Assembly (NCBI RefSeq): GCF_024281235.1
Contig: NZ_JAHWXY010000011.1
Coordinates: 1 to 64,000, forward strand
Length of the DNA: 64,000 nucleotides
Direction: 5' to 3'
Source: Shinella daejeonensis
Lineage (GTDB): Bacteria; Pseudomonadota; Alphaproteobacteria; Rhizobiales; Rhizobiaceae
Under the pieces are notes generated by a model that made no database searches, had not been told where the DNA came from, and saw only the letters and a list, made by a program, of their open reading frames with translations. A program made the translations under genes and the position numbers. This document shows positions 24,680 through 40,347 of this stretch, piece after piece. The number at the start of each line of letters is the position of its first letter. Position 1 is the stretch's first letter.

Positions 24680-24892
24680 CTATGGTTGCCGCCCGCGCCG
24701 GCGGGCGAGAAGATGGCCGACCAGCGCCACCAGACCGCCCGCCGCGCCGGCCAGAGCGACGAGAAGATCGGCCAGTTGCCCCTGTTCGGCGGCCGACATG
24801 TCGAGGCCGAAGGCATGGGCCGCCGAGGCGAAAATGGCGATCAGCGCGCCCCAGACGGTGCGCGAGCGATACCAGGCTTTGACGTCGTCCAT
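24680..24892 (-). CDS. Holin-like protein (70 aa)
   Basis: Two hydrophobic segments (about 13-30 and 41-62) and a highly basic C-terminal tail (ARRRGRQP) are the layout of a class II holin. A holin would open the inner membrane at the end of particle production so that an endolysin reaches the wall. It is the last gene of the GTA cluster, 47 bases after the megatron gene, with AGAGGA upstream of the ATG at 24892. A GH19-like endolysin is in the same cluster. No sequence family was recognised beyond this, so the role is inferred from topology and position. Confidence 0.65.
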   Translation of the reverse strand: MDDVKAWYRSRTVWGALIAIFASAAHAFGLDMSAAEQGQLADLLVALAGAAGGLVALVGHLLARRRGRQP

Positions 24893-24939
24893 CGGTCTTT
24901 CCTCTCTTGGGTCAAACGGGTCGAACGGCGCGATGCGCC

Positions 24940-27900
24940 TCATGGGCGGATCGTCGCCCGCAGGGGAAGACCGAGCGGAACCGCCCGGCCGAGCTGGCGC
25001 ACGCGTAGCGAGATCGCCGTCTGCGGCGCGCCGAAATCCGCGATTTCCTCGCCGGCGGCATAAAGATGCTGCGGCGCGGTGGTCTCCACGGTGCGCCGCA
25101 CGGTCTCGCCGGCAAGGATTTCCAGCCGGTAGGCCTCGAAAGGCTCGTCGAGCGGAATTTCGGAGGCGTGCCAGCTGTCGGCGTCGATCCGGCCGCGCCG
25201 CACCCAGGAAAACCGGATGCCGCCCGCTTCGCGCCGGCCGCGCAGATGCACGGGCGCAAGCGGCGTCATGGCCCGCAGGCCGCCGGAAAAATCGTATGGC
25301 CCGGCCCGCCCGGTCCCCGGCAGGCCGACCGGCTCGGCGATCCATCTGGCCGCAAGTCCCGCCTCCTCGGCCGCAAGTCCGAGCGGCAGGACCGCTTCGT
25401 CCAGCATGACGACGGCCGCCCCCGTTTCGTGCCCGGCGAGCATCGCGTCCTCCGTTCCGGCAAGCGCCCGCAGAAGCCCGGAAAGCCGCCAGCGGCGCGG
25501 CGCGATTTCGCTTGCCTGCCGGAACGCAAGGACTTCCCAGCCGCCGTCGGTCGCCGCGACGGCGATCCGGTTGGCGTCCGCCAGGACGGCCAGCAGGTCG
25601 ACGGAGGACAGCCCGCCGAACGGCAGGTCCACGAGCACGACCGCCGAACGGTCGAACAGGCCGACGCTGCCCGGCGGCAGCGGCGCGGCGAGCGTGCCGA
25701 TGCGCGCCGGCCGTTCCAGCCGGACCCTGGGACGAAACCCCTCGTTCACCGGCGAACTCGAAATCAGCATCCCCCGCCAGGGATCGGCATAGGCGGCGAC
25801 ACAGGCGAAATCGCGCTCGCCGCCGGCCTTGTGCATCGGCAGGTCGAGGAACAGCAGCTCCGGCATGAAGGCGTCGGAGGGTACCGCCCCGCCGACGCGC
25901 ATCCGGGTTTTGTCGCGCACCAGTGGCGCAGGACTGCCGCCGGTGGCGATTTCCCGCGCCTCGACTTCGCGCACCAGCCCGTCGGCGATGCCGGTGATCA
26001 GGAACCGGCCGTCCGGTCCGTCGGCAAGCCGGATCACATCGCCCGGCGTATGACCGATCGCCGTCGGCGGCAGGCGGAAGGAAATCCGGCGCTGGCCGGC
26101 GCGCTGATCGCGCAACGCAGCTTCCGCCGCCTCCGCAGCGGCGCCCTCGTGCAGAACCGCCGGCAGCGCAAGACGCAGCGCCCGGTCGCTTGTCGACGCC
26201 GCCCGGCGCGAGCGCGCCGTCACCCGTGCATAGGCCCCCGCCTCTCCGAAATGGTCGAGGATCGCCTCGCCGGCGAAGTCGCTGTCGTGCCCCCGGCTTT
26301 CCTCGAAGGCCAGCTCGTCGGGACGTTCGGCAAGCACGGAAATCTCCACCGCCGGCCGCGCGGAACGCAGCCGCGACCGGAAGACGAGCCTGCCGCCCTC
26401 TTCCGTCGCATCGATCTGGAAGGCGTGCATCAGCGGTTCCAGCAACGTCCGGGCGGATGTCTGTTCCGCCTGCACGAAGCCCTGGAGGTCACCCGCCACC
26501 CCCGAAACGTCGAACTCCGAAAATCCATGATCGGCAAGGATGGCGGCGATCACGTCGGCCGCCGTGCCAGCACCCAGCCGCCCGTTCAGCCAGTGGCCGC
26601 GCTGCCAGTTGTCGCCGTCCGCCCAGAGCGCCGTCTGCTCGGGAAAGGCCGGATAAGGTCGCGCGTCCCAGGTCCACAGGAAGATGTGACCGGGATCGAC
26701 CATGCCCGTTTCCGCGCCGCCTTGCGGCCACCAGCCGAGATGCGCGTCGAGGAAGCGGCGCTGCGCCGCATCGCTGCGCGCGCCGCCGGAATGGTGGGGC
26801 AGCCCGTCCTCGGAGCTTTTCGGGTCGGAGAAGACGTTCGGCTGGTTGGTCCCCTTGTCGATCGCCGGACAGCCGAGTTCGATGAACCAGACCGGCTTCG
26901 AGCGCGGCGTCCAGACGGTGGGCGACGGCTTCTCGCTACCGCCGGGACCGCGCTCATGGTGCCGGTTCGTCCACCAGCCGGCGACGTCCTTGTAGCGGAA
27001 GACCCATGGTTTTCCGGCGGCCCCGTCGGTGATCGGCGTGCGCAGCCGCGTCCGCCGGTCGGCGGCGCTGGCGTAATACCAGTCGAATCCTTCGCCGCCG
27101 GCGATCATCGCGCGCATCGCCGCCATGTCTTCCGCATGGCGGAAGCCGTCCGGATTGCCGGACGACAGGTCGGCGTCCTGCCAGTCGGAAAGCGGCATGT
27201 AATTGTCGATGCCGATGGCGTCGATATGCGGTGAGGCCCAGAGCGGATCGAGGTTGAAATGCACCGATCCGTCCTCCGGCTGATAGCCGAAATATTCGCT
27301 CCAGTCCGCGCCGTAGGTGAGTTTCGTCGCCGGACCGACGACGGCGCGCACGTCGGCGGCAAGCGCCCGCAGGGCATCGACGAAAGGAAACCCGCCGCTG
27401 CCGTCGCGAAGCCGGGTCAGCCCGCGCATCTCCGAGCCCATGACGAAGCCGTCGACGCCGCCTGCCGCCTGCGCCAGCAGCGCGTAATGCAGGATATGCC
27501 TGCGAAAGCCGGTATCGGCCGCCGGCCCCGTCACCTGCGTACCCGCCACGCTGAAATCCTCGGCCCGGGCCTCGCCCATGAAAGCCTCCGCCTGGCTGCG
27601 CGCCGCCGCCGTCCTGTCTGCCGACTGGGGATGGCAGGTGATGCGTCCGCGCCAGGGATAGGCCGCCTGCCGCGCGCCGCCGTAAGGATCGGGCAGCGTG
27701 TTGTTCGCCGGAACATCCATCAGCAGGAAGGGATAGAGGTACACCTCCAGCCCCCGCGCCTTGAGGTCGGCGATGGCCGCGACGACGCTGGCGTCGGAGG
27801 GCGTGCCGCCATAGGCAGGGCCGCCGCCGGCGCGGCTGACGCGATAGGCGGCGGCGCGCGAGACGCCGCAGACGCGCCACGGCAGGCTTTCGGCGAGGCG

Positions 27901-28773
27901 CAGCGGCTCCTCCACGCCCGGCACGATGCGGCACTGTCCTGCCCTGAGGTCCGACCCGAACCAGGCGACGACGAGGCCGACCCTTTCCAGATTGGGACAA
28001 AGCGCCTGCAATTCGTCGATGGAGGCGTGCCAGTCGGTGGCCGCCGTCAGCGTGTTGCGGTTGATGTTGCGGCCCTTGCCGGCCGAAAGCTTCTCCGTCA
28101 CCAGCCGTGGATCGTAGCCATGCTCGCTCGATCCGGGAATGATCGTCACCGCCCTGATCTTCTTCTCCAGCGAGCCGACCGGCTTCAGCACCTCGAACTG
28201 GATCACAGGGATACGGTTGCCGAAACTGTCGAGCGGCAGCCGTTCGAAGACGGCATAGGCGAGGCCGCGATAGGCGGGCGTGTTGCCGCTTCCCTGTTTC
28301 GCCTCGATCAGCGGATCGGGGGCCTGGGCCGCCGTTCCGCGATGCAGCCGCATCTCGATACCGGTGAGATCGAGTTCCCGGCCGTCGACCCAGACCCGCC
28401 GGACGCCGGCGATCGGCCCCTCGCAGATGCCGACCGCCAGATTGGCGAAATAGCGGTAGGTCTCGATGCGCGGCCCGCTCGCCTTGCCGCCGGAGCGTTC
28501 GACGATCATCTGCTCCTCGAAGCGCGTCGCCCAGATCAGGGTGCCGCCGACGCGGGCCGTGCCGTAGACGCGGCTGATCGCCGTTCCCTCCTCCGCGCCG
28601 GGAATGCGCGCGTCGTTGAGCCTTGCGCCGGATATCGTCGCCGCGCCACCGATGAGTGAACGGTCGATGGCCGATCCGGCGAGCGCGCCGGCCGCACGGC
28701 CGATCACCGCGCCGATCGGCCCGAAGATGCCGCCGAGTGCCGCGCCTGCGGCCTGGAGAAGAAGCGTGGCCAT
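24940..28773 (-). CDS. GTA megatron/host-specificity tail protein (gp15-like)
   Basis: Very large baseplate protein of 1277 residues. The N-terminal third resembles phage tail-tip proteins. A glycoside-hydrolase-like TIM-barrel domain (about 400-700) includes segments such as FIELGCPAIDKG and FLWTWDARPYPAFP. It is followed by a putative phage-tail (PF13550-like) domain and a C-terminal receptor-type region. In R. capsulatus GTA the homologue forms the central baseplate structure and is thought to contact the recipient. Its ATG at 28773 lies 4 bases past the stop of the NlpC/P60 gene. The whole frame is intact. Confidence 0.92.
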   Translation of the reverse strand: MATLLLQAAGAALGGIFGPIGAVIGRAAGALAGSAIDRSLIGGAATISGARLNDARIPGAEEGTAISRVYGTARVGGTLIWATRFEEQMIVERSGGKASGPRIETYRYFANLAVGICEGPIAGVRRVWVDGRELDLTGIEMRLHRGTAAQAPDPLIEAKQGSGNTPAYRGLAYAVFERLPLDSFGNRIPVIQFEVLKPVGSLEKKIRAVTIIPGSSEHGYDPRLVTEKLSAGKGRNINRNTLTAATDWHASIDELQALCPNLERVGLVVAWFGSDLRAGQCRIVPGVEEPLRLAESLPWRVCGVSRAAAYRVSRAGGGPAYGGTPSDASVVAAIADLKARGLEVYLYPFLLMDVPANNTLPDPYGGARQAAYPWRGRITCHPQSADRTAAARSQAEAFMGEARAEDFSVAGTQVTGPAADTGFRRHILHYALLAQAAGGVDGFVMGSEMRGLTRLRDGSGGFPFVDALRALAADVRAVVGPATKLTYGADWSEYFGYQPEDGSVHFNLDPLWASPHIDAIGIDNYMPLSDWQDADLSSGNPDGFRHAEDMAAMRAMIAGGEGFDWYYASAADRRTRLRTPITDGAAGKPWVFRYKDVAGWWTNRHHERGPGGSEKPSPTVWTPRSKPVWFIELGCPAIDKGTNQPNVFSDPKSSEDGLPHHSGGARSDAAQRRFLDAHLGWWPQGGAETGMVDPGHIFLWTWDARPYPAFPEQTALWADGDNWQRGHWLNGRLGAGTAADVIAAILADHGFSEFDVSGVAGDLQGFVQAEQTSARTLLEPLMHAFQIDATEEGGRLVFRSRLRSARPAVEISVLAERPDELAFEESRGHDSDFAGEAILDHFGEAGAYARVTARSRRAASTSDRALRLALPAVLHEGAAAEAAEAALRDQRAGQRRISFRLPPTAIGHTPGDVIRLADGPDGRFLITGIADGLVREVEAREIATGGSPAPLVRDKTRMRVGGAVPSDAFMPELLFLDLPMHKAGGERDFACVAAYADPWRGMLISSSPVNEGFRPRVRLERPARIGTLAAPLPPGSVGLFDRSAVVLVDLPFGGLSSVDLLAVLADANRIAVAATDGGWEVLAFRQASEIAPRRWRLSGLLRALAGTEDAMLAGHETGAAVVMLDEAVLPLGLAAEEAGLAARWIAEPVGLPGTGRAGPYDFSGGLRAMTPLAPVHLRGRREAGGIRFSWVRRGRIDADSWHASEIPLDEPFEAYRLEILAGETVRRTVETTAPQHLYAAGEEIADFGAPQTAISLRVRQLGRAVPLGLPLRATIRP

Positions 28774-28776
28774 GGA

Positions 28777-29217
28777 TCAGCAGGACTCCGGGAAGCGGAA
28801 GACGCCGGCGATGCGCCGTTTCCAGAGAAGGACCAGCGGCGATTCCACGACCGCCGCCTGTTCATAGGCATGGATGAACCGGTCGCCGGGCGTGGCGATA
28901 CCGGCATGTTTGGCCGCGCAATCGGCCCGGAAACGGAAGATCATGAGGTCGCCCGGCGCAAGGTCGGCAAGCGGCAGCGGCGGCCCGCAGTGCCGTTCCG
29001 CCGCCAGAAGCAGCCGCTCCTCGCCCGACCGTTCCGCCCAGTCGGGCGCATAGGCGGCCGGCCTTTCGGGTTCGCAGCCGTAAAGCTCGCGCCAGACGCC
29101 GCGCACCAGTCCGAGACAATCGCAGCCGACCCCCTTCAGCGCGCCCTGATGGCGATAGGGCGTGCCGATGAAGCCGCGCGCTATGGCGACGACGCGCGCG
29201 CCGTGATCCTCACGCAT
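28777..29217 (-). CDS. GTA NlpC/P60-type peptidase (gp14-like)
   Basis: The protein has 146 residues and an NlpC/P60 fold. The catalytic Cys34 is in GCDCLGLVRG and the His is in KHAGIATPGDRFIHAY. It is a tail-associated cell-wall hydrolase that would let the tail cross the recipient's peptidoglycan. The start at 29217 overlaps the hub gene by 8 bases. Length and motifs match the TIGR02219 family. Confidence 0.92.
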   Translation of the reverse strand: MREDHGARVVAIARGFIGTPYRHQGALKGVGCDCLGLVRGVWRELYGCEPERPAAYAPDWAERSGEERLLLAAERHCGPPLPLADLAPGDLMIFRFRADCAAKHAGIATPGDRFIHAYEQAAVVESPLVLLWKRRIAGVFRFPESC

Positions 29218-30100
29218 GGAGCGGCCTCCCGTCGTGCACCGTGTCGCCATCGGCGTAGCCATAGGCGAAGTCGCTGCCGGGCATATGCGGAAACCCCTGG
29301 AAATTGAGGATATTGCCGAATTTCTCCTTGCAGGTGGAGAGACGCTTGTCGCAGCCCGCCGTGATCGAAAAGGCGTCTCCCGTCTTCACGCCGGCGGGCA
29401 GCGGCAGCCATGCCGTCAATTCGCTCGCCCCGCCCGGCCGGCGATGGTCCTCGATATCCGCCGAAAGCCCCTCGGCCGCCCCGCTGGTGAACGTGAGAAC
29501 GCCGTAGCGGAAGAACCGTTCGGCAAAGCCCGAAAGCCCGCTCACGCGCAGGCGCGCCCCCGCCATCACGGCGTTGACCGTCCCCGTCGCCTGATAGGCA
29601 GGCGCGGAAAGTGCAACGCCGCAACGCCGGTCGCCGAGCACGGCGTCGCAACGATGGCCGTAGACGCGGCCGCGCACCGCATCGAGCCGATGGGTGAGCC
29701 GGCGCAATTCCGCGCGGAAGGCCCCGCCCTCGCGGCGCACCTCGCCCAGTTCGGCCGTCCGCAGCAGCAGCCGCTCAGCCGGAGCCTGCCAGTTGACGAG
29801 GTAGATATCCACCCTCGCCCCGTCGTAGCGGCCCGCCGACAGGTCTTCGGTACGGATCGCCGCATCGGAGAAACCGCCGATGATCTCGCCGCCCTCCGCC
29901 GACAGGCCGTTGCCGTCCTCCGTCTCGCTGGCCGCAAAGCCGCTCGCCGCCGCATAGGCCGTCCCGCCGAAGGAAAGATCGCGGTCGTGGTCGGTGAAGC
30001 CCTGCACCGCGCCGTCGCGCCGGGTGACGCGCCAGGCATGGCAAAGCGTCGTGACGTCGCCGGCCAGATGGGCGGCGAGATTGGCCGGGATGGTCCTCAT
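29210..30100 (-). CDS. GTA baseplate hub protein (gp13-like, DUF2163)
   Basis: DUF2163 (TIGR02218) protein of 296 residues. Four cysteines, Cys151, Cys160, Cys250 and Cys257, are arranged in two pairs. Lambda-type tail-tip hub proteins bind an iron-sulphur cluster with a comparable set, so one is likely here. The C-terminus GSDFAYGYADGDT is typical of the family. The start at 30100 overlaps the upstream stop as ATGA. It should sit between the distal tail protein and the megatron. Confidence 0.92.
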   Translation of the reverse strand: MRTIPANLAAHLAGDVTTLCHAWRVTRRDGAVQGFTDHDRDLSFGGTAYAAASGFAASETEDGNGLSAEGGEIIGGFSDAAIRTEDLSAGRYDGARVDIYLVNWQAPAERLLLRTAELGEVRREGGAFRAELRRLTHRLDAVRGRVYGHRCDAVLGDRRCGVALSAPAYQATGTVNAVMAGARLRVSGLSGFAERFFRYGVLTFTSGAAEGLSADIEDHRRPGGASELTAWLPLPAGVKTGDAFSITAGCDKRLSTCKEKFGNILNFQGFPHMPGSDFAYGYADGDTVHDGRPLHA

Positions 30101-30732
30101 GGCCGGATCTCCACCAGCGGGATCGATGGAATGCGTCCCGCTTCGAATTGCGCCAGATCGATGTCGATGCGATCGGTATCGAAGCGCACCGGCACGTCGA
30201 ATTCGTAACCGGCGGTGATGGCGCCCGAGGCCGGCAGTCTTCCCGCCTCGAAGGTCACGAGGCCGGTGGCGTGATCGACCGTGAAATCGTTTGCCGGCAC
30301 CGGCGTCCCGGCCACGGCGACGATCACCGTCCCGGCGACCGGCTTCTCGATGGTCCGCACGGTCTGGCCGCCGGCATCCGCATAGCGTTTGACGAGCTGG
30401 AAACCGGCCCGGCTGCCGTTGCCCGTGCCGATGCGATGATCCGTCGCCTTCGGTGTCGCGCCCGGCGGGCACGATTTATGGTCCACGGGATCGTGGAAGC
30501 GGAACCCGTGGAACTGTCCAGCGCGCGCCTCGAAGAAGGCGAGCACCGCATAGAGATCGTCGAGCGAGCGCACGCCCGATCCGGCGTCATAGCGCCGCCG
30601 CGCATCCTGCCAGCGCCGGTTGCGGTTCTCCCGGCCGTTGGAAAGGCTGACGATATCCGTCCGCCGCACCGGCCCGCCGCTCGTGCCGAGCGCCACCCGC
30701 AGGGGAAAGCGCACCTCGTGAAATCCCGTCAT
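30097..30732 (-). CDS. GTA distal tail protein (gp12-like, DUF2460)
   Basis: The protein has 211 residues with the DUF2460 (TIGR02217) signature: FPLRVALGTSGGP at the N-terminus, ARRRYDAGSGVRS and FRFHDPVDH in the middle. It forms the distal end of the tail tube and connects it to the baseplate. The ATG at 30732 is preceded by GATGGAGA. Its stop overlaps the hub start. Confidence 0.92.
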   Translation of the reverse strand: MTGFHEVRFPLRVALGTSGGPVRRTDIVSLSNGRENRNRRWQDARRRYDAGSGVRSLDDLYAVLAFFEARAGQFHGFRFHDPVDHKSCPPGATPKATDHRIGTGNGSRAGFQLVKRYADAGGQTVRTIEKPVAGTVIVAVAGTPVPANDFTVDHATGLVTFEAGRLPASGAITAGYEFDVPVRFDTDRIDIDLAQFEAGRIPSIPLVEIRP

Positions 30733-30800
30733 CGATGCGTCTCCATCGTCTTGTCTTTTCATGCGTCCCACGTCCGTCCCCGGCAGCGCGCCGGAAACGC

Positions 30801-31337
30801 TCACAGGCTGCGCTGTCCGCGTCCCACCGCCCGCGTCAGCATGGCGGCGATCTGGCCCTCGGACTTGCGGAAGCTTGCGGCATCCTGCGCCGTGACGTTG
30901 AAGACGATGCTGGTCGCCCGCCCGCCCTCCGCCGCCACCCCGAGGGATCCGTCCGGGCCACGCCGCAGCGGCAGGATCGCCTCGGCCCCGGCCTCGCCCA
31001 TCAGCCCGAGGCCGCCGTCGCTGCCGAAATAGGTGGGGGCGGCCACCACACCGCCCTTGGCGAAGGGCGTCGCGCCGCCGAGAAGACCGGACACGCCGGA
31101 GGCGATCAGCCCTTCCAGCGGTTTCAGCCCGACGGAAAGCGCGATGTCGCTCATCCGCCGCGCCAGTCCGGTCAGCACGCTTTCGAGGCCGCGGCCATCG
31201 ACCGTGGCTCCCCGGAGCGCGCCGGTCAGCGCGCTCCCGAAGGAGCGTGACCGCGCTTCGAGATCGTCGAAGACATCCTTCAGGTGCTCGGCCTGCGACA
31301 GCGTATCGACAAGCCGCGTTTCATCGGTTCCGGCCAT
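30801..31337 (-). CDS. GTA tail tape-measure protein (gp11-like, short)
   Basis: Only 178 residues. An N-terminal helical part (about 1-65) is followed by a Gly/Ala-rich hydrophobic stretch (LEGLIASGVSGLLGG, about 75-95), the FAKGGVV and GEAGAEAILPL motifs typical of phage tape measures, and a C-terminal globular segment. Such a short ruler predicts a very short tail, as in GTAs. It follows the chaperone gene after 3 bases. A 68-base gap separates it from gp12. Confidence 0.88.
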   Translation of the reverse strand: MAGTDETRLVDTLSQAEHLKDVFDDLEARSRSFGSALTGALRGATVDGRGLESVLTGLARRMSDIALSVGLKPLEGLIASGVSGLLGGATPFAKGGVVAAPTYFGSDGGLGLMGEAGAEAILPLRRGPDGSLGVAAEGGRATSIVFNVTAQDAASFRKSEGQIAAMLTRAVGRGQRSL

Positions 31338-31340: not shown

Positions 31341-31559
31341 TCACTCCTTCTCGTCGGGAAAGGCGCGCATCAATACGGCAAGCTGCGTCCGGCCGGGCGC
31401 AACGGGCGCGGGGCGCGTGAGGCCGAGCACGACGGCCAGTTCACGCGGCGTCATCGCCCAGAAATCCTTCGGGGAAAGCCGCATCCGGCACAGGCCGGCA
31501 TGAAGCGCCGCCTCCCAGGGGAAGGCGGCAGCGCCGCTTGCGCCGGATGCGGCCGTCAA
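31341..31559 (-). CDS. GTA tail assembly chaperone-type protein (TIGR02216/Rcc01693-like)
   Basis: The protein has 72 residues with the family hallmark FPWEAALHAGLCRMRLSP followed by DFWAMTPREL. The start codon is probably TTG at 31559, overlapping the stop of the preceding gene as TTGA, a coupled junction. It is thought to help assemble the tail tube around the tape measure, an inference from its position between the tail tube and tape-measure genes. Confidence 0.85.
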   Translation of the reverse strand: MTAASGASGAAAFPWEAALHAGLCRMRLSPKDFWAMTPRELAVVLGLTRPAPVAPGRTQLAVLMRAFPDEKE

Positions 31560-31909
31560 GGGTTTTCGCCCGGCGCCCCTCCCCGGTCCCTTTCGCCGAA
31601 GGTCGCCGCCAGCAGGCTCGCGACGATCCCGGCGAAACCCGCGAGCCCCTCGGCGACGGCCATTTCCCCCACCTCCTCGTCGGAGAAGATATTGCCGCCG
31701 CCGCGAAGCCCCGCGCCGACGATGCGGATCAGGTCCAGGGCCTTCAGCCGGCCGGAGGAGAAGCGCTCGGCAAGCCCGGCCAGACTGTCGACGGCGAAAG
31801 CCGTCTCCAGTTCGGCGAGCGCGCCCAGCGTGAGGCAGAGCACCCGGCGCTCGCCGTCGATGATCGCCTCGATCTCGCCGCGATGGCGGTTGGCCCGCGC
31901 GCCCGTCAT
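31556..31909 (-). CDS. GTA family protein gp10 (tail assembly chaperone type)
   Basis: The protein has 117 residues with NRHRGEIEAIIDGERRVL at the start and LGALAELETAF in the middle, matching the gene transfer agent family PF11836. It likely acts with the next gene as a chaperone pair of the kind phages make by frameshifting; here the two are separate overlapping frames. The ATG at 31909 shares a base with the tail tube stop (TGATG), and a GTG one codon upstream is also possible. Confidence 0.87.
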   Translation of the reverse strand: MTGARANRHRGEIEAIIDGERRVLCLTLGALAELETAFAVDSLAGLAERFSSGRLKALDLIRIVGAGLRGGGNIFSDEEVGEMAVAEGLAGFAGIVASLLAATFGERDRGGAPGENP

Positions 31910-32316
31910 CACAACGCCCCGAAGGTGAGCGCGCCGGCCGATTCCAGTGCGATTTCGAACAGCACCTCGCCGTCATGCGCGCCGGAATAATCGAGCGCGG
32001 CGATCTGGAACGGCCCGGCGATCGTGCCGAAGTCCGGCACCACGATCTGCCAGCGGGCGATCGTTCCGGCGAAGAACAGCGAGCGCACCAGCGCATCGGA
32101 CGCCTGGTCCTTGAAGATGCCGCCGCCGCTGACCGAGGCGCGCTGCACGCCCGCGCCCTCCAGAAGCTCGCGCCAGCGGCCGGCCGATTCCGCATCCGTC
32201 GCATCGACGATCTGCGCGTTGAACGACAGCCGCTTCGAGCGCAGGCCCGCCACGGTCGAAAATGTCGCGCCGTTCTCGATCTTCAGGAGCAGGTCCCGCC
32301 CCTTCTGTGCCACCAT
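31909..32316 (-). CDS. GTA major tail tube protein (gp9-like)
   Basis: Tail tube protein of 135 residues, phage major tail protein 2 family: MVAQKGRDLLLKI at the N-terminus, then DATDAESAGRWRELL and a beta-rich C-terminal half. It polymerises into the tube through which DNA passes. An AAGGA ribosome site precedes the ATG at 32316. A TTG two codons earlier is a less likely start. Confidence 0.92.
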   Translation of the reverse strand: MVAQKGRDLLLKIENGATFSTVAGLRSKRLSFNAQIVDATDAESAGRWRELLEGAGVQRASVSGGGIFKDQASDALVRSLFFAGTIARWQIVVPDFGTIAGPFQIAALDYSGAHDGEVLFEIALESAGALTFGAL

Positions 32317-32344
32317 GGCCAAATCCTTTCGGTCGGTTCGTGTT

Positions 32345-32755
32345 TCAGGAGGCGAGCGGCTCCGTCACCGCGTGAAAATGCATGTCCGCACGGTGAAACC
32401 GGCTGCGGGCATCGCGGCGGATCCGCGTTTCACGATGCAGCAGGAAAACGAGATGGTGGCCGGCGAGCGGCAGCGTCGCGTCGTGCAGCGCCGCGCGGGC
32501 CGCCGCAGCGATCGCCTGCGCCTGCCGTTGTCCCGCCGCGCCGGACCAGATTTCCAGCGTCACCCGATGGTCCTCGCCCTCTTCCGTCGCGGTGGAATGG
32601 TCGCGGCTGTCGATGGCGGCGAGAACGAGAAGCGGCTCCACCGGTCCGTTCGGCCGGCTATCGACGATCCCCTTCGCCCCCAGCAGCGCCGCAAGCGTCG
32701 CATCGGCGGACAACCGCAGGAAGATCGCCTTCTGCAAGGCGGATGCGGCGCTCAT
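32345..32755 (-). CDS. GTA tail terminator (gp8-like, DUF3168)
   Basis: The protein has 136 residues and the DUF3168 pattern: helix ALQKAIFLRLSAD, then VTLEIWSGAAGQRQA and a C-terminal HFHAVTEP strand. It caps the tail tube at the head side. Its start overlaps the gp7 stop by 4 bases. Confidence 0.9.
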   Translation of the reverse strand: MSAASALQKAIFLRLSADATLAALLGAKGIVDSRPNGPVEPLLVLAAIDSRDHSTATEEGEDHRVTLEIWSGAAGQRQAQAIAAAARAALHDATLPLAGHHLVFLLHRETRIRRDARSRFHRADMHFHAVTEPLAS

Positions 32756-33090
32756 GGCTTTTCCTCCTCGCAGTCGCAGACGCGATAGCGGCCGCTTTCA
32801 TCCGGGTCGAAAACCGTATGGATCGAGAACAGCCGCCCGCCCTTGCGAAAGCGCATGGCGGCGCGAAGATCGTCGCGCGCCCGCAGGTGGATGCGATGCG
32901 TCACCGTCATTCGCTGCGATCCGGCCGTCTCGCGGGCAAGGGCCGTCACCGGCTCGATGCGCGCCCAGACAGCGGCGAGCGGTTCGAACGTCCGCATGAC
33001 GCCGCCCTGTCCGTCCGGCGTCTCGACCGGCCGTTCCAGCACCAGCCGCGCGGCAAACGCCCCGGGGTCGTGAACCCGCCGCCGCCTCAT
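32752..33090 (-). CDS. GTA head-tail stopper/head closure protein (gp7-like)
   Basis: The protein has 112 residues of the SPP1 gp16-like head closure family. Typical features are the basic N-terminus, LVLERPVETPDGQGG, VWARIEPV and the THRIHLR strand. It closes the head under the connector. It overlaps gp6 and gp8 by 4 bases each, so the three are translationally coupled. Confidence 0.88.
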   Translation of the reverse strand: MRRRRVHDPGAFAARLVLERPVETPDGQGGVMRTFEPLAAVWARIEPVTALARETAGSQRMTVTHRIHLRARDDLRAAMRFRKGGRLFSIHTVFDPDESGRYRVCDCEEEKP

Positions 33091-33656
33091 AGCCTGCGCA
33101 TCCGGTAGGGCGCGATCAGCCGGTCGTAGCCCTGCGGCACCGCGCCCGGCTGGTGCTCCACGGCGACGACGCCGCGCAGTTCGTACATCGCCGCCACATG
33201 CAGCAGCAGCGCCCGCTTCAGCGTATCCGGCACGTCGGCGCCGCTCTCGCCGAAACCGGCGGTGAAGTCGATCTCGATCCCGTTGACCGCCCGTTCCGCC
33301 ACGGGCGTCTGCGGCAGCACGAGCCGCGCCGGGCGCGCCGCGCCGTCGAGCACATAGCCGGCCGCATCGACTTCGAGCGGCATGCCAACGGCATCGTAAA
33401 CGGTAACCGATTCAATGGTTTGAACCGGCCCTCTGGCAATCTGAATCACCCGCCCCTCCGGCCAGCCGTCGAGATAGAGACGGAAGGGGCGGACGATCAG
33501 GCAAAGCCCGGTCTCGCTTTCAAGATGGATGCGGGCGGCGGCAAGCAGCACCGTCAGCAAGAGGTCCTCGTCGCTCCCGTCGAGGCGCAAATGCGCCTTC
33601 GCCTCGGCAAGCGTGACCGGCTCGGCGGCCGGCGGCGTCAGTTCGGCAATGGTCAT
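33087..33656 (-). CDS. GTA head-tail connector/adaptor (gp6-like)
   Basis: Protein of 189 residues in the gp6/gp15 connector family. The N-terminus TLAEAKAHLRLDGSDEDLLL and the C-terminal PDTLKRALLLHVAAMYE helix are diagnostic. It forms the ring below the portal. The start at 33656 has AGGAC upstream and gives the normal MTIAELTPP opening. Confidence 0.9.
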   Translation of the reverse strand: MTIAELTPPAAEPVTLAEAKAHLRLDGSDEDLLLTVLLAAARIHLESETGLCLIVRPFRLYLDGWPEGRVIQIARGPVQTIESVTVYDAVGMPLEVDAAGYVLDGAARPARLVLPQTPVAERAVNGIEIDFTAGFGESGADVPDTLKRALLLHVAAMYELRGVVAVEHQPGAVPQGYDRLIAPYRMRRL

Positions 33657-33741
33657 CGGGTCCTGTCCGTTTGCTGGAAAAGGAATGGCGGCCCCCGCCG
33701 CAGGCAACGGCCGACGGCGGGGGGATCGGTGCGTCCTCGCC

Positions 33742-34989
33742 TCAGTCCTCGGCGAATTTCACCAGCTTGATCGCCTCGAAGTTCTGCACGCCGCCGCCGA
33801 CGCGCTTGGTGGTGTAGAAGAGCACATAGGGCTTTGCGGAATAGGGATCGCGCAGCACGCGGACGCCGGTGCGGTCGACGACGAGATAGCCGGCCCGGAA
33901 GTCGCCGAAGGCGATGGAGACGCTGTCGGCGGCGATGTCCGGCATGTCCTCGGCCTCGGCGACGACGAAGCCCATCAGCGATGCCGGCTGGCCGGGGCCG
34001 GCCGGCGGACGCCAGAGGTAGTTGCCGTCGGCGTCCTTGAACTTGCGGATCGCCCCTTGCGTCTTCCGGTTCATGACGAAGCTGGCGTTCTGCCGGTGTC
34101 CCGCCTTCAGCGCATAGACCGTGTCGATCAGCGTGTCGGAGGGATTGCTCGCCTTGAAGGCCCCGGCCGCGCCGGTGGCGATATAGCCGATGTTGCCCCA
34201 GCTCCAGCCCGCGTCGGCGACGGTCGTATAGGAGAGGAAGCCCCGGGGCCGGTTGACGCCGTCGCCGCCGACGAAGGCCGCCCCCTCCTGTTCGCCGAAG
34301 ACGATGTCCACTTCCGAGGCGATCCAGCTCTCCACATCCACCGCCGCATCGTCGAGCAGCGCGGGGGTGGCGGCCGGCATGGCGTAGAGTTCCATGGTCG
34401 GGAAGGAGAGTTCGGCAAGCTGCGGCGTATTGGTCTGCGGGCGCACGGCGGTCTCCGCCACCCATCCGCAAGCCATGCCGGAGGTGGCGAAGGGCTTCTT
34501 CAGCACCGAGCCGGAGACCTGCCGCACGGTGGACAGCGCCCGGATCGGCGAGACGGCGGAAAGCCGCCGGCCGATTTCGGTATCGGTTTCCGGCGGCACG
34601 AGATAGCCGCCGTCGGCCGCCGAGCCGACCGACATCGCCTTTTCCTCCAGCGTCCTCAGCGCGCTTTCGTCGCCCCGGCGCAGATAGGCCGAGAAGGCCG
34701 CCTTGTGTTCGGCCGTCTCGGGGGTTTCCGCGCCGCCGCCGAGCGCCGGGCGCGCCTTCTTCAGCGCAAGCTGGTCCATGGCCCGCTTCTGCTCGTCGAG
34801 CGCGCTGTTGATGCGGTCGAGCTTGTCGCGCGTCACCACGTCGGCGGTCAGCTTGTGCTCGATTTCGCCGAGCCGGCGATCGTTGGTCTCCCGGAAGGCC
34901 TCGAAGGCCTCCATGAAGTCGTCGAAGACGGCCGTCATCGTATCCGGCGTGGCCTTGGTTTCCGGTGCGCTCTTTTCGCTCTGCGTCAT
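33742..34989 (-). CDS. GTA major capsid protein (gp5-like, HK97 fold)
   Basis: Capsid protein of 415 residues. Residues 1-110 form a charged helical scaffold (delta) region, expected to be cut off by the prohead protease. The HK97-fold part begins around GGYLVPPETDTEIG and includes PTMELYAMPAATPALLDDA and FGDFRAGYLVVDRTG. It builds the small GTA head. Frame is intact and the gene follows the protease in the usual order. Confidence 0.95.
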   Translation of the reverse strand: MTQSEKSAPETKATPDTMTAVFDDFMEAFEAFRETNDRRLGEIEHKLTADVVTRDKLDRINSALDEQKRAMDQLALKKARPALGGGAETPETAEHKAAFSAYLRRGDESALRTLEEKAMSVGSAADGGYLVPPETDTEIGRRLSAVSPIRALSTVRQVSGSVLKKPFATSGMACGWVAETAVRPQTNTPQLAELSFPTMELYAMPAATPALLDDAAVDVESWIASEVDIVFGEQEGAAFVGGDGVNRPRGFLSYTTVADAGWSWGNIGYIATGAAGAFKASNPSDTLIDTVYALKAGHRQNASFVMNRKTQGAIRKFKDADGNYLWRPPAGPGQPASLMGFVVAEAEDMPDIAADSVSIAFGDFRAGYLVVDRTGVRVLRDPYSAKPYVLFYTTKRVGGGVQNFEAIKLVKFAED

Positions 34990-35038: not shown

Positions 35039-35596
35039 CTATCGCTTCAGGAGACGGACGGCCCGGCGCATGGCGCGCAGGAGTTCCGTCTCCCCGTCAC
35101 GGAACCAGCGGGCGTTCTTGACGTTCGAAACGCGCGCCGATGGCAGCATCGGGAAGGTGACGATGGAAATCTCCCAGAGATCGGCCTCCAGGATGCGGCG
35201 CACGCCGCTTGCCCGGTCGGTCTTCGAGCGCCGGGTCTGGAAGCCGATGGACAGCCCGTCGAGCGCGCCGGATTTCATCAGGCTCAGCACCTCGCGGGCC
35301 CGTTCGACGTCGGGAGAAAGAACGCCCTCCACATAGAGCCCGCGCCGGTCCTCGCGGATGGTGCGCCAGCGGCCGAGCGGCTCGGACGGATCGTGCTGGT
35401 AGAGCATGCGCACGCCGGCCGCGCCGCGCTTGTCCAGCGAGCGGGCGAAGGCGCCCGGCGCGATCGCGTCCTTGCCGAGGTCCACCTCGCCGAAGACGCT
35501 GGCGTAACCGCTGAAGACGCCGCTGCCGGAGACCCCGGCCAGCGTCAGATCGGCATATTTCTTCGTCCGCCGGACCGGCAGGTCGTCGGTTGTCAT
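35039..35596 (-). CDS. GTA prohead protease (gp4-like, HK97 type)
   Basis: Protease of 185 residues that processes the capsid scaffold. The likely catalytic residues are His in YQHDPSEPLG and Ser in DGLSIGF, with an acidic residue in DLWEISIV. The N-terminal KKYADLTLAG and FSGYASVFGE are standard. It is followed by the capsid gene after 49 bases. Confidence 0.92.
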   Translation of the reverse strand: MTTDDLPVRRTKKYADLTLAGVSGSGVFSGYASVFGEVDLGKDAIAPGAFARSLDKRGAAGVRMLYQHDPSEPLGRWRTIREDRRGLYVEGVLSPDVERAREVLSLMKSGALDGLSIGFQTRRSKTDRASGVRRILEADLWEISIVTFPMLPSARVSNVKNARWFRDGETELLRAMRRAVRLLKR

Positions 35597-35650: not shown

Positions 35651-35959
35651 TTATCGCCGCATCCGCTCGGCGAAGCGCGCCAGCACGCCAAGGCCCCACC
35701 AGGCCGAAAGGCTTGCCGCCGCCGAGCCGGCCAACAGGATTTCCGACGGGCCGAGGTGGCCGGAAATGCCGAGCCGGAGCGCGATCCACAGCCCCATCGG
35801 TCCGCCGAAGACGATGCCGCAGGTGACGCCCGTCAGGAAACGGCAGGCGGCCTCGCGGCGGCTTTTCGGCAGGAGATAGATGATCGAGACGGCCGCGCCG
35901 GCGAGTGCGCCGGCAAGGCGCGCCGTCCACAGCCCGCCGTCGTTTCCAAGATCAGCCAT
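35651..35959 (-). CDS. DUF6107-like membrane protein in the GTA cluster
   Basis: The protein has 102 residues with three or so hydrophobic segments (about 13-31, 42-62 and 70-90) and a basic end (ARFAERMRR). It lies between portal and protease genes, where I recall DUF6107 proteins in other rhizobial clusters. Function is unknown. Membrane topology within a particle operon hints at a second holin, antiholin or membrane-docking factor. GGAAAGG upstream supports the ATG at 35959. Confidence 0.75.
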   Translation of the reverse strand: MADLGNDGGLWTARLAGALAGAAVSIIYLLPKSRREAACRFLTGVTCGIVFGGPMGLWIALRLGISGHLGPSEILLAGSAAASLSAWWGLGVLARFAERMRR

Positions 35960-36161: not shown

Positions 36162-37298
36162 TCAGTATCCGACCGCCTGCCGTTTTTCCTCGGCGGTGAG
36201 GAAGTCCGCCGCCCCGACGCGTGCCCAGATTTCGGAACGCTCGGCCGATAGGCCGCTGATCTGGTCGAGATCGGGCACCAGCCGGATCGCCGTTTCCGGC
36301 CGTTCCGAAAGCCAGGCGGTGAAGGCGGCGGCGGTGCGGAAGATCAGCGGCAGAACGGTGAGCCGCCAGAAGGCGCGGTTGGCCTCCTGATAGTTGGCGT
36401 AGGTGGCGTCGCCCGGAATGCCGATCAGCATCGGCGGCACGCCGAAGGCGAGCGCGATATCGCGGGCCGCGCCATTTTTCGCCTCGACGAAATCCATCTC
36501 GCGCGGGCTGAGGCCCATGGCCTTCCAGTCGAGCCCCCCTTCGAGCAGCATCGGCCGGCCGGCCCGGGCGGGACCGGAATAGCCTTCCTCCAGTTCCACC
36601 TTCAGCCGGTCGTACTGGTCGGCGGAAAGATTGCCGCCCTCCTTCGGCTGATAGACCAGCGCGCCGGAGGGACGCGCCGAATTGTCGAGCAGAGCCTTGT
36701 TCCAGACGGCGGCCGCATTGGAAAGATCGAGCGCCATCGAGGCGGCTTCGAGCGGCGCGAAGCCCAGCCGGTCGTCGAGCGGGTGGAACAGCCGCAGGTG
36801 CAGGATCGCCTGCCCCTCGCCCGCCGGGTGCCGGCGCAGATGATTGCCCGCCCGGTATTCATAGGCCTCCGGCCAGCCGTCGCGGCCTTCGACGATGCGC
36901 ATCCGGTCGGGCCGCAGCAGATGCAGTTCGCGCAGGTCCGCACCGATCTTCACGCCCTCCACGAAGGCGTTGCCGGACAGCAGCAGATGCCCGTAGAGCG
37001 TCTCGAAGAAATCGGTGCCCGCCATGCGGCCGTTCGGCCGGGCGAGAAGCGACAGCAGCGGGTCGTCCGGCCGCTCCTCTTCGCCGGCATAGGCGAGCCA
37101 GGGCACGGAGGCCGCCGCCTCGGCGATCATCCGCACCGCCCTGTGCGCCACCGGGTTCTTCATGAACCCCTCGCGGGCAAGCGCGGCGTAGCTGCGGCTT
37201 GTCCAGCGCGCGCGCCCCTCCGCCGTCAGGGCGAAGAAGCCGGACGCCTTGGTTTCCGCCGCCGCGGGGCGACGCTGGGGGAAGAAAGGTAGCTTCAT
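36162..37298 (-). CDS. GTA portal protein (gp3-like, HK97 family)
   Basis: Portal of 378 residues. Recognisable are NPVAHRAVRMIAEAAASVPW near 47-66, LLARPNGRMAGTDFFETL near 84-101, DLSNAAAVWNKALLDN and FGVPPMLIGIPGDATYAN in the C-terminal half. It forms the DNA-entry vertex of the head. A 202-base gap, without any clear gene, separates it from the next gene downstream. Confidence 0.93.
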   Translation of the reverse strand: MKLPFFPQRRPAAAETKASGFFALTAEGRARWTSRSYAALAREGFMKNPVAHRAVRMIAEAAASVPWLAYAGEEERPDDPLLSLLARPNGRMAGTDFFETLYGHLLLSGNAFVEGVKIGADLRELHLLRPDRMRIVEGRDGWPEAYEYRAGNHLRRHPAGEGQAILHLRLFHPLDDRLGFAPLEAASMALDLSNAAAVWNKALLDNSARPSGALVYQPKEGGNLSADQYDRLKVELEEGYSGPARAGRPMLLEGGLDWKAMGLSPREMDFVEAKNGAARDIALAFGVPPMLIGIPGDATYANYQEANRAFWRLTVLPLIFRTAAAFTAWLSERPETAIRLVPDLDQISGLSAERSEIWARVGAADFLTAEEKRQAVGY

Positions 37299-37374: not shown

Positions 37375-38013
37375 TCATTGCCCGCAGCGCGCCGGTTGCG
37401 CCGTATCGCCGATCGCCGCGTGGTAGGCCCGGGCGTAGCCGGCGACGAGAGCGGCGCGTTCGGTGCCGTTGACGATGCGGCGGGCGTTGATCCAGTCTTC
37501 CCGTCCGGGAGAGAAATAGTCGGCGAGCCGCCGGCCGGTGAAAGCGCCGCCGGTCATGCCGGTGAACATCACCGTGACGGCAACGGAAAGCTCCATGGCG
37601 CGGGCGGGATCGGCCACCAGGTCGATACCGGTCTCCTGCGTCATGCGTTGATAATTGGCCTTGTGCGTCAGTTGCACGAGGCCCCGCCCCAGCCAGCTCC
37701 GGCCGTCGCGGTCCTTGCGCCAATAGGGTGCGCGGACGAAGGCGAGCCGGCCATCGCGAAACGCCTTGTCGAGAATGGCGATGGCCCGCTCGTCGCTTGC
37801 GGCGAAGGTCTCGCGCACCGCCTGCATGGTGCGGCCGGTCTCATGATGGGCGGTGCCCAGCATATAGGCGAGCCACCGGCGGTCACCCGTCGGCATCTCG
37901 GCCTCCCACCGGTCGAGGATCGCCGTAAGACCGTCCACCTGCGCCTGCCGCAGACGGCCGTCGAACAGGCGCTCACGCACCCGATCGAAGAAGACCTTGC
38001 GATCGATCGCCAT
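37375..38013 (-). CDS. GH19-like putative endolysin within the GTA cluster
   Basis: Protein of 212 residues resembling GH19-type phage lysozymes/chitinases: AHHETGRTMQAVRE (probable catalytic Glu) near 55-68 and WLGRGLVQLTHKANY near 106-120. There is no signal peptide, so it would need a holin to reach the wall; a holin-like gene ends the same cluster. It lies between large terminase and portal genes, an unusual place. The role in donor-cell lysis is inferred. Confidence 0.75.
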   Translation of the reverse strand: MAIDRKVFFDRVRERLFDGRLRQAQVDGLTAILDRWEAEMPTGDRRWLAYMLGTAHHETGRTMQAVRETFAASDERAIAILDKAFRDGRLAFVRAPYWRKDRDGRSWLGRGLVQLTHKANYQRMTQETGIDLVADPARAMELSVAVTVMFTGMTGGAFTGRRLADYFSPGREDWINARRIVNGTERAALVAGYARAYHAAIGDTAQPARCGQ

Positions 38014-38040
38014 GCTTTTCTCCCGTCGGCTCGATGTTTT

Positions 38041-39591
38041 TCAGATTTCCCGCACGCGCGGCTCGCCGCGCCGGTCGAGAACCAGCGCCGTCAGCGCCCA
38101 GACGAGCGCGTCGAGCCGGTCGGGCGAACGGCCGGAGGAAAGCCCGTCCGGACCGAAGTCGCACATCTGGTCCTCCAGTTCGGGAAAGGCGGCGGCATGG
38201 GCCACCCGCCCCTGTTCGTAAAGGGCGGCCACCGGCTCAGCGCGCAGGAATTTTCCGCGCGTCGCCCGGACGGTCGAAACAGGCAGGTCCGTGTCGATGC
38301 TCCTCAGCATCGCCGCCACCATGTCGCCGCCCTGGTTGACCTCGGCCACCACCCGGTCCGCGTCGAAGCGGCGGAAGGCGCGCACCACCGCCGTCGCCCA
38401 GCCGGCGGGGCTTGCGCCGCTCACCGAGCAGTCGGCGAGCACCACCGCCCGTCCGGCGCCGTCGAGACCCGCCACGACGATGCCGCAGACGGACGCGGCC
38501 GAGGCGGTCGCCGGCGGGTCCACGGCCACGACGATGCGTGCAAGCGGCCCGGTCTGGCGCAGTCGCAGCGTGTCCAGCCGCCCCCGGCTCCACAGCGCGT
38601 CCTGCCGGTCGGCGATCAGTTCGCCGTCCAGCTCCTGCCGGCCGAGCCGCGTGCCGCCGTAACGCTCGGCCATCGCCGTGAGAAACCCCGGCGAGAGATT
38701 GCCGGCGTTGTCCCCTGTCCGAATGCGGCGCACCGCCGTCTTCGGATCTTCCGCAAGCGCCCGCACCAGAGCCGTCGGCCGGGGCGTCGTCGTCACCAGC
38801 ACGCGCGGCCGCTCGCCCAGCCGCAGGCCGAATTGCAGCATGTCCCAGGTTTCCTGCGCATGCTTCCACTTGCCGAGTTCGTCGCACCAGCCCAAATGGA
38901 ACTGCGGGCCGCGCAGGCTTTCCGGATCCTCGGAGGAAAAGATCTGCCCGATGGAGCCGTTCGGCCAGACGAGCCGCCGGCGCGAAGCCTCGAAGACCGG
39001 CCGCCCCGGCCCGGCGATGCGGCAGATGCCGGAAACGCCGTCGATCATCACCTCCCGGGCGTCGCCCAGGGTCTCCGCCACCAGCGCGATCCGCAAGTCC
39101 CGCGTCGCCGAGGCGATCGCATGCACCCATTCCGCACCGGCCCGCGTCTTGCCGGAACCGCGCCCGCCCATCAGCAGCCAGACCCGCCAGTCGCCCGGCG
39201 GCGGCTGCTGTGCGTCGCGTGCAACCAGACACCAGCTCCGCAAGGCCCGGCGGGAAAGGGAAAGCGTCGGCGACGCCGCCGCCGGTCGCAGCGGTGAGGA
39301 ACGGGAAACCGGCGGCGCTATCCGCCGGCCTTCCACCGGCCCGTCACCGTCCCCGCAGGCCGGCGGGCTTTCGGCCGCAGCCGTCCGCCGTGCCAGTCCC
39401 GCCTCCATCTGCTCCGCGGCGAGACGCAACGCCTCGGTCGCCCGCTGTCCTTCGTTCATCCGCAAGCCCGCCGCCGCCGTCCTCATCGCCATCGCGGCCT
39501 TGCGGGCCGCCCTGCGGTTCCGTCTCCGGGCCTTACGGTCCGTCGCCGTCCCCGCCCCCGCCCCCGGCCCCGGCGTCAGGGCCTCGATCAT
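38041..39591 (-). CDS. GTA large terminase (gp2-like)
   Basis: ATPase/nuclease that packages DNA, about 516 residues from this start. Walker A GGRGSGKT is near 142-149, Walker B-like LGWCDELGKW near 226-235. The nuclease domain has VVAVDPPAT, VAEVNQGGDM and DRLDALVWALTAL, which supply the acidic residues. The N-terminal 110 residues are basic and low-complexity, so the true start may be 39459 or 39408 instead. The start at 39591, with GAGGG upstream, overlaps the preceding gene by 59 bases. Confidence 0.88.
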   Translation of the reverse strand: MIEALTPGPGAGAGTATDRKARRRNRRAARKAAMAMRTAAAGLRMNEGQRATEALRLAAEQMEAGLARRTAAAESPPACGDGDGPVEGRRIAPPVSRSSPLRPAAASPTLSLSRRALRSWCLVARDAQQPPPGDWRVWLLMGGRGSGKTRAGAEWVHAIASATRDLRIALVAETLGDAREVMIDGVSGICRIAGPGRPVFEASRRRLVWPNGSIGQIFSSEDPESLRGPQFHLGWCDELGKWKHAQETWDMLQFGLRLGERPRVLVTTTPRPTALVRALAEDPKTAVRRIRTGDNAGNLSPGFLTAMAERYGGTRLGRQELDGELIADRQDALWSRGRLDTLRLRQTGPLARIVVAVDPPATASAASVCGIVVAGLDGAGRAVVLADCSVSGASPAGWATAVVRAFRRFDADRVVAEVNQGGDMVAAMLRSIDTDLPVSTVRATRGKFLRAEPVAALYEQGRVAHAAAFPELEDQMCDFGPDGLSSGRSPDRLDALVWALTALVLDRRGEPRVREI

Positions 39592-40126
39592 CGCCCTCAG
39601 GCCGTCCATCGGCGTGTTCGCCTTGCCTGATCCAGGCCTTGATCCGGGCATCGAGGCGCTCCTTCACCCGTTCCTCCACCAGCCGTTCGAATTCCGCCTT
39701 CAGCGCCACGGCGTCCTCCGATCCGGCCTGCGCTTCCTCCGCCTCCAGGCGTTCGGCGATCAGGATGCGCTGGAGACTGTCGATCTTTTCCAGCGTGCGC
39801 ACGATCAGCGACACGGCCTCGATGGCCGCCTTGGCGTCGGTCTGGGCGAGCTTGCGGGCGGTGTCGTCGGCGGTCGCCGCGGCATCCGCCTCGGCATGGG
39901 CCTTCTGGCTCTGGAAGCGCTGGAAGCGTTCGCGCAATTCCTTGGTCATCTCGATCAGCATCGCCTGCATGTCGAGGAAGGGGTCGGCCGGCGTCGCCTT
40001 GATGTCGAGCACCTGCACGGGCTCCCCCTCGAAGGGATCGTCCACTGCCCGGACCAGCCCGTCATAGCGCCTGCCATCGGCCGTCACGCCGAACAGCCGC
40101 CAGTCGATTTCGAGATCTTCATCCAT
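39533..40126 (-). CDS. Candidate GTA small terminase (gp1-like)
   Basis: The protein has 197 residues. An N-terminal domain (about 1-50, with DEDLEIDWRLFGVTADGRRYDG) is followed by a long charged helical stretch (about 55-175), then a Gly/Asp-rich tail. It is the first gene of the cluster and overlaps the large terminase gene, where R. capsulatus encodes gp1, the TerS that forms a helical oligomer without a classical HTH. The role is inferred from position and coiled-coil character. The start at 40126 (MDEDLEI) is preferred over one 25 codons upstream, which would include the leader hairpin. Confidence 0.6.
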   Translation of the reverse strand: MDEDLEIDWRLFGVTADGRRYDGLVRAVDDPFEGEPVQVLDIKATPADPFLDMQAMLIEMTKELRERFQRFQSQKAHAEADAAATADDTARKLAQTDAKAAIEAVSLIVRTLEKIDSLQRILIAERLEAEEAQAGSEDAVALKAEFERLVEERVKERLDARIKAWIRQGEHADGRPEGDDRGPDAGAGGGGGDGDGP

Positions 40127-40146
40127 CGCCGCACCCTGAAAAGCAC

Positions 40147-40178
40147 AAGGCGCCCGATCCGTCAGGAACGAGCGCCTT
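40147..40178 (-). promoter_or_regulatory. Leader hairpin upstream of the first GTA gene
   Basis: GCGCCTT and AAGGCGC form a perfect 7-bp stem over an 18-base loop. On the minus strand GTGCTTTTC follows, which is a weak T-tract. It lies between the predicted promoter and the first gene, so it could be an attenuator acted on by an antiterminator. Confidence 0.4.
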
Positions 40179-40283
40179 TGCAACAATCCGTGAAATTCCA
40201 AAGCCGGAGGCGGCCGATGCCGCCATCCGTCCGGTCATCGGGAACGAAGCGGACCCGCCGCCCGCACCTTTCCGACTATGCCA

Positions 40284-40312
40284 TGATCCTATCAAAGCAC
40301 CGTGACGCCGTC
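40284..40312 (-). promoter_or_regulatory. Predicted promoter of the GTA cluster
   Basis: On the minus strand TTGACG (40312-40307), exactly 17 bases, then TAGGAT (40289-40284). This is 5/6 and 4/6 to the sigma70 consensus at ideal spacing. It is about 160 bases upstream of the first cluster gene and points towards it. Confidence 0.6.
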
Positions 40313-40318
40313 AAGGAC

Positions 40319-40347
40319 TATTTTCCTATTATTGGCATTTTTTCCTA
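40319..40347 (-). promoter_or_regulatory. Tandem AATAGGAAAA repeats upstream of the GTA promoter
   Basis: Two identical 10-base direct repeats, at 40319-40328 and 40338-40347, 19 bases apart (about two helical turns), in an AT-rich island. The nearer copy ends 6 bases from the -35 box, which is the position of an activator site. No other exact copy was seen in the window. Confidence 0.55.

Follow-up and report, generated by a model that had tools for sequence, protein, structure and literature searches.

A gene transfer agent cluster and its control region

The 64,000-nt stretch of Shinella daejeonensis DNA analyzed here (the window, from a 4.66-Mb genome) carries a gene transfer agent (GTA) cluster of the Rhodobacter capsulatus type (RcGTA), preceded by a conserved promoter block and a leader with a terminator-like hairpin, as well as homologues of the GTA regulators gafY and gafZ some distance away. 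We consider it probable that these parts make up a GafYZ-controlled late promoter similar to that of lambda Q, at which GafZ would enable read-through of a terminator in the leader.

Domain searches placed the cluster between 40126 and about 24680, with all genes co-directional on the minus strand, which also carries the promoter, leader and gafYZ features described below. Gene 1 (39533-40126, 197 aa) had matches in 20 of the 21 genomes of the genus, a count that includes the window's genome; no Pfam or PHROG family matched it, and its designation as a small terminase is therefore a guess from position. It is followed by the large terminase TerL (38041-39651; PF03237, 4.9e-30; PF17289, 1.4e-22), an endolysin-like gene with a GH19 region (37375-38013; phrog_181 endolysin, 2.3e-35; PF00182, 4.6e-5, below its cut-off), the portal (36162-37298; PF04860, 5.2e-86), a weakly holin-like DUF6107 protein (35651-35959; PF19602, 1.8e-47; phrog_2359 holin, 0.002), the prohead protease (35039-35596; PF04586, 5.7e-37), and the major capsid protein (33742-34989; PF05065, 6.9e-89). 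Connector, head completion, tail completion, tail tube and TAC genes (31341-33707; PF05135, PF05521, PF11367, PF06199, PF09550) precede those for the tape measure, DUF2460, baseplate hub and NlpC/P60 proteins (28777-31337; phrog_1716, 2.4e-14; PF09343, PF09931/PF09356, PF00877), and the series ends in the GTA megatron (24940-28773; PF13547 GTA_TIM, 6.7e-128; PF13550; PF23666). No integrase or replication domains were found among the scanned cluster proteins. A co-directional run from terminase to megatron without such genes, as claimed in a first-pass annotation made from the sequence alone, is the gene content expected of an RcGTA-type gene transfer agent; domain matches bear out the annotated series from TerL through the megatron, whereas its small terminase candidate stands on position.

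A small holin-like ORF follows the megatron (24680-24880; phrog_34682 holin, 3.4e-8, at residues 155-210 of ORF 24680-25345); the longer frame mostly overlaps the megatron gene and is holin-like in its C-terminal part only. With the endolysin-like gene at 37375-38013, this places lysis genes alongside particle genes, and the two sets may be co-expressed.

A conserved promoter block precedes gene 1

Alignment of the regions upstream of gene 1 in 20 genus loci (the window and 19 relatives) revealed a single 71-bp block of conservation at 40329-40259, with a mean pairwise identity of 0.924. Identity was 0.476 directly upstream, 0.593 over the 60 nt after the block and 0.756 over 300 nt of gene 1. 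The genus promoter pattern matched seven named records, every one from Shinella, and six of the 20 loci agree with those records at 100% identity over 3.4-3.6 kb. The block aligned without gaps over its 71 bp in 41 full-length copies from the family (20 from the genus, 21 from other genera), and 13 of its columns were invariant across 60 copies drawn from the whole order. A promoter scan called a TTGACG-N17-TAGGAT site within it, with TG before the -10 (one found, against a mean of 0.2 in shuffles), in agreement with the promoter annotated previously. We numbered positions from the invariant A of column 51, the +1 that we predict at 40279 from the spacing to the -10.

The elements of the block could be distinguished by their conservation across the 60 loci. 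A putative GafY box, AGGAAAATAGTCCT (AGGA-N6-TCCT; 40314-40327), spans -48 to -35 and abuts the -35, overlapping its first base; G5, A7 and T16 are invariant, and A3, G4, A6, C14 and C15 are kept in at least 90% of loci. The -35 itself (TTGACG, 40309-40314; -35 to -30) has T16, T17, A19 and C20 invariant. Between -35 and -10, hexamers separated by 17 nt, lies a putative GafZ site (40298-40310) with the core CGT-N-ACG (40307-40301) and a variable center, in which C28, G29 and T31 are invariant and C23, G24, T25 and A27 reach at least 90%. The extended -10 (TG-A-TAGGAT, 40286-40294) has its hexamer at 40291-40286 (-12 to -7), with A40 invariant and G37, T39, G41, G42 and T44 at 90% or more. Conservation continues into the predicted first transcribed bases (40259-40279), where A51, T55 and C56 are invariant and G54, T64 and G65 reach at least 90%; the bases kept include GTC at +4 to +6 and TG at +14 and +15. 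The arrangement supports an activator-like site against the -35 of the GTA promoter; the CGTNACG core is the better candidate for a GafZ site.

The first-pass annotation had instead proposed two direct repeats, 19 bp apart and ending six bases from the -35, as the activator site. Both AATAGGAAAA copies are present, at 40349-40340 and 40330-40321, the second followed by TAGTCC and then TTGACG at 40314-40309. The AGGA-N6-TCCT box has the proximal copy as its left half, and this copy is conserved as part of it; the distal copy (40340-40349) occurs in 1 of the 20 genus loci, the window itself, and an AGGA-like copy 17-22 bp upstream was seen in 8 of 70 loci (a count that omits L045, which has no upstream sequence). 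We therefore rejected the two-copy repeat as a conserved activator site: the proximal box is kept in relatives, and the direct repeat is not.

The region upstream of gafY shares one of the two putative elements

The regulator genes lie about 11 kb from the cluster. gafY (51079-51555; PF08299, 2.6e-13) encodes a protein with a DnaA C-terminal helix-turn-helix (HTH) and starts at an ATG after GGAG that is common to relatives; gafZ (50247-51086) encodes a DUF6456 protein (PF20057, 2.8e-45 on 50247-51110), and its start overlaps the gafY stop, as judged from the reading frames. The pair is flanked by sufE and mucR (PF02657, PF05443), the neighbors reported for the split regulator of Hyphomicrobiales (PMC9638019). 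The earlier assignment of GafYZ-like proteins to 50247-51555 thus holds in both domain content and neighborhood. A comparison of the GafZ sequence with the Protein Data Bank returned nothing at an E value of 1.

A second GafY-type box, GGAAAATATACCT (51683-51695), was found upstream of gafY. The pattern GGAA-N6-CCT was present there in 20/20 genus loci, 103-106 nt before TATGAATAAATTCCTAT (51573-51589), a motif identical in all 20 loci and located just before the gafY ribosome-binding site. Within the window, GGAAWWWNNNCCT occurred only at 40314 and 51683, while the looser GGAA-N6-CCT was found 10 times. CGTNACG was present upstream of gafY in none of the 20 loci over the 230 nt examined. In Caulobacter crescentus, GafY is reported to act at the gafYZ and GTA promoters among others (about 18), and GafZ to bind the GTA promoter only, via a palindrome between -35 and -10, and to act as an antiterminator (Tran and Le 2024, PMC11150451). 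A box shared by both promoters and a spacer core confined to the GTA promoter would parallel this GafY/GafZ logic, in other sequences and with the activator box at another position.

Two further observations concern these sequences. The conserved TATGAATAAATTCCTAT (51589-51573) resembles a degenerate activator box (TGAA-N6-CCT), and may alternatively be a repressor site. A phage origin of GafZ was also considered. A search of 50,697 phage records with GafZ gave a single match, MW462191 (L149), at 46% across 70% of the query. We rejected such an origin: in MW462191.1 (labeled 'Bacteriophage sp.') the gafZ-like gene sits among bacterial housekeeping genes, with a 'sulfur acceptor protein' gene beside it and a preceding gene annotated as a DNA-binding protein, and the record is probably a mislabeled bacterial chromosomal contig.

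A terminator-like hairpin lies in the leader

The leader carries a GGCGC..GCGCC hairpin (40176-40149) followed by a T-rich tail (the whole at 40138-40176). A leader hairpin had been noted previously; it is best read as an intrinsic terminator, and as such it would be the target of antitermination. A hairpin and then T-rich sequence stand directly before gene 1 in all 20 genus loci, and the copies of relatives have cleaner T tracts than the window's. Because loose terminator settings scored 152 of 355 shuffles as positive, we used a stricter test (-14 kcal/mol or better, with dinucleotide shuffles as control). Under this test, terminators were found in 20/20 genus leaders, 11/22 leaders from other genera of the family and 12/29 from the order scan described below, compared with 25/400, 18/440 and 43/580 shuffled leaders, respectively; among leaders from IMG/VR contigs the count was 15/31 versus 18/620, so that the shuffle background was 3-7% across leader sets. 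Control regions 600-830 nt downstream scored 0/20, 3/22 and 0/28 for genus, family and order scan, and upstream controls 0/20, 0/15 and 1/29. Outside the genus many hairpin sequences differ by eye, and some of near relatives are alike. Three genus leaders (L006, L016 and L019) have an extra insertion of about 90 nt between block and hairpin. Rfam searches of the window and of 13 loci from family f20 produced no hit reaching the gathering threshold.

The block tracks GTA genes and DUF6456 across the order

To define the distribution of the block, we scanned 397 genomes of the order with a sequence model built from the 41 family copies (E 0.01). It was detected in 214 of them, representing 87 of 142 genera; the window's own genome has a single copy (78.6 bits, next match 15.8). 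A broader model applied to a class-wide sample of 337 genomes gave 15 scorers. Four are from the order (the window and three others), and the remaining 11, from elsewhere, are weak, at 21.1 bits or less.

The block is associated with GTA genes. Of 30 TerL loci returned by a scan of the family, 25 contain it within the fetched stretch; of the other five (L027, L028, L030, L039 and L040), L027 shows the block's end at its edge. For the order scan's 29 other top-scoring loci (L056-L084), of which four come from the window's family, 1.5 kb downstream was fetched: TerL followed in 21 and gene 1 alone in one, with neither within that distance in seven. A search of IMG/VR by promoter letters alone returned 31 contigs; in 29 of them TerL lies downstream, its match beginning at a distance of 0.5-1.7 kb. 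As for the regulator, DUF6456 is encoded in 211 of the 214 block-positive genomes (Fisher p 2.9e-30, without phylogenetic correction), and 84 genomes of the order have neither block nor DUF6456. G012, of the same genus as the window, had no match to gene 1 or TerL, no block (best 13.9 bits) and for gafY only a weak DnaA-like match. In G278 (L100, G278:C13:346476-362500) the GTA cluster is split into modules, and three block copies precede its terminase, portal and capsid genes.

A separate observation concerns genus g128 of family f20, in which eight genomes each contain 1 to 18 sequences closely resembling the GTA promoter core (TTGACAGCGTNACGCTG through the start region) at E 0.01. Thirteen of the 15 copies fetched from two of these genomes (G484 and G520) lie away from a GTA terminase; 10 of the 13 begin no more than 40 nt past the stop codon of a gene running in the same direction, 12 face an opposite-strand gene downstream (gene calls by a GC3 heuristic), and three positions with identical neighbors are common to both genomes. 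The copies span loci L085, L087-L093 and L095-L099.

A model for GafYZ control and its alternatives

We put together the following model, in which the role of each box, the start site, termination and read-through are what we infer. GafY, through its DnaA-type HTH, would bind AGGA-N6-TCCT against the -35 and contact RNA polymerase, and through the box upstream of gafY it would regulate its own operon. At the GTA promoter alone, GafZ would bind CGTNACG between the two hexamers, load onto polymerase at the start site, and carry it past the intrinsic terminator in the leader of about 140 nt. Most transcripts would then end in the leader when GafZ is absent, and the operon of about 15 kb would be transcribed when it is present. 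The first-pass annotation had anticipated an activator plus an antiterminator; a box at the -35, GafYZ homologues and a terminator-like leader agree with that proposal, with the box in place of the direct repeats as the conserved site.

Several results weigh against this model. The box alone is weakly specific: a whole-genome scan with GGAAWWWANNCCT gave eight matches, versus four for the reversed pattern. Two of the eight are the GTA and gafY promoters, and the other six showed no evident GTA gene on a reading of ORFs that involved no family search. The roughly 18 GafY promoters reported for Caulobacter are more than the box would explain here (PMC11150451), the box abuts the -35 rather than lying at about -120 with integration host factor (IHF) as in that species, and the letters of the spacer palindrome differ. 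Covariation between the arms of the spacer core was not above shuffles, though dyad symmetry is visible by eye. DUF6456 was also encoded without a block detected at E 0.01 in 99 genomes. As for the leader, the window's T tract is interrupted (TTGTGCTTTTC), which is why a strict terminator scan of the window found none, and the whole-leader fold is only 1.8 standard deviations below shuffles (z -1.8). About half of the leaders outside the genus lack a terminator by the -14 kcal/mol test, so a leader terminator is not obligatory.

One of the GGAAWWWANNCCT matches (L184, G000:C22, near 804669) has surrounding ORFs of phage-like appearance, as judged by eye.

How firmly initiation itself depends on GafYZ is a further consideration. 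In Caulobacter, replacing the -35 (AATCAT) with a near-consensus sequence is reported to lower activity about sixfold while making it independent of GafYZ (PMC11150451); because the rhizobial -35 is already near-consensus, its promoter may have some constitutive activity and be locked mainly by termination. An extreme form of this idea, tentative and on balance doubtful, holds that the GTA promoter of Hyphomicrobiales fires without GafYZ, given its near-consensus -35 and extended -10, while the leader terminator keeps the operon silent. Ordinary cells would then contain a terminated RNA of about 140 nt, antitermination by GafZ would be the main switch, a situation likened to lambda 6S RNA and Q, and the spread of the promoter to up to 18 sites in one family would let GafZ-loaded polymerase act beyond the GTA.

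A different explanation, which we regard as unlikely, dispenses with antitermination: GafY and GafZ would be co-activators of initiation only, GafZ as a sigma-like recruiter of the kind proposed for GafA, and the hairpin would be an RNA-stability or translation element. The C-terminal part of GafA is reported to bind a fragment spanning -35, -10 and start, and GafA to bind the omega subunit of RNA polymerase (PMC9638019, PMC6363796); the poor T tract of the window's hairpin and the 16 of 31 IMG/VR leaders without a strong terminator point the same way. Against it stand the reported antitermination by Caulobacter GafZ (PMC11150451) and the excess of leader hairpins with T tracts over shuffles, compared with the few or none 600-830 nt downstream.

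It is considerably less plausible that the block is a general promoter, or a site for another factor such as IHF, MucR or CtrA, with the GTA cluster as one of several users. The multiple copies in g128, with most of those fetched away from a GTA terminase, speak for such a site, and mucR adjoins gafY; yet the window genome has one copy, far above its next match, the hits outside the order in the class-wide sample are weak, and G012 lacks gene 1, TerL and gafY along with the block. Finally, the hairpin could serve to terminate the gene that precedes the cluster and be unrelated to GTA control. In the window this neighbor (40876-40394) runs in the same direction and stops 64 nt short of the block, but the hairpin lies about 100 nt downstream of the predicted start, and in 17 of 20 genus loci no co-directional gene was found just upstream while all 20 keep the hairpin, which makes this hardly credible.

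The regulators and the principle were already known from Caulobacter, the one species in which GafY and GafZ elements have been mapped according to the literature covered (PMC11150451). Searches of an open-licence library turned up no title or abstract on rhizobial GTA promoter or leader elements. The result is an order-wide prediction, at nucleotide resolution, of both cis elements and of the terminator that GafZ would pass, which can be tested in many rhizobia, and the IMG/VR search shows a promoter-based route to GTA clusters that needs no protein information. Should the leader terminator prove true, GTA control would become an accessible example of a phage late switch that has been domesticated. 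The near-unchanged control stretch of relatives suggests how particles are held off and turned on.

Comparison with known systems

As read here, the Shinella arrangement would resemble the lambda pR'-tR'/Q and Pseudomonas AlpA systems in its constrained start-site region and in placing a terminator, here a terminator-like hairpin, within a short leader ahead of the late operon. The putative GafZ site would also match their antiterminator sites in lying inside the promoter spacer (site positions from PMC11150451), but GafZ is a DUF6456 protein that is reported to be dissimilar to those antiterminators (PMC11150451).

With R. capsulatus, Shinella shares the cluster type and a GafA-related regulator (PMC9638019, PMC6363796), and recognition of the promoter region would be common to both, in GafA through the C-terminal part discussed above (PMC9638019, PMC6363796). 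Unlike GafA, the Shinella regulator is encoded by two separate genes, the state reported for Hyphomicrobiales. In the class-wide sample, no genome outside the order gave a useful score for the block.

A close parallel is the Caulobacter GTA (CcGTA), which has homologous regulators (a DnaA-C domain protein and a DUF6456 protein) and a long untranslated leader with terminators downstream; its palindrome-like element in the spacer and its GafY sites at the GTA and gafYZ promoters have putative counterparts in Shinella (PMC11150451). The two systems differ in their details. The Shinella -35, TTGACG, is near-consensus, unlike AATCAT in Caulobacter, and its spacer element is CGTNACGG rather than GCGCCCG-CTGGCGC. 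The terminator-like hairpin stands before gene 1, in contrast to the 150-bp repeats after gtaT of Caulobacter. Whereas the Caulobacter GafY site lies at -123 to -113 with an IHF site, the Shinella activator-type box abuts the -35, occupying -48 to -35 instead of a position about 120 bp upstream; at gafY in Shinella, about 104 bp separate the box from the conserved start-proximal motif downstream.

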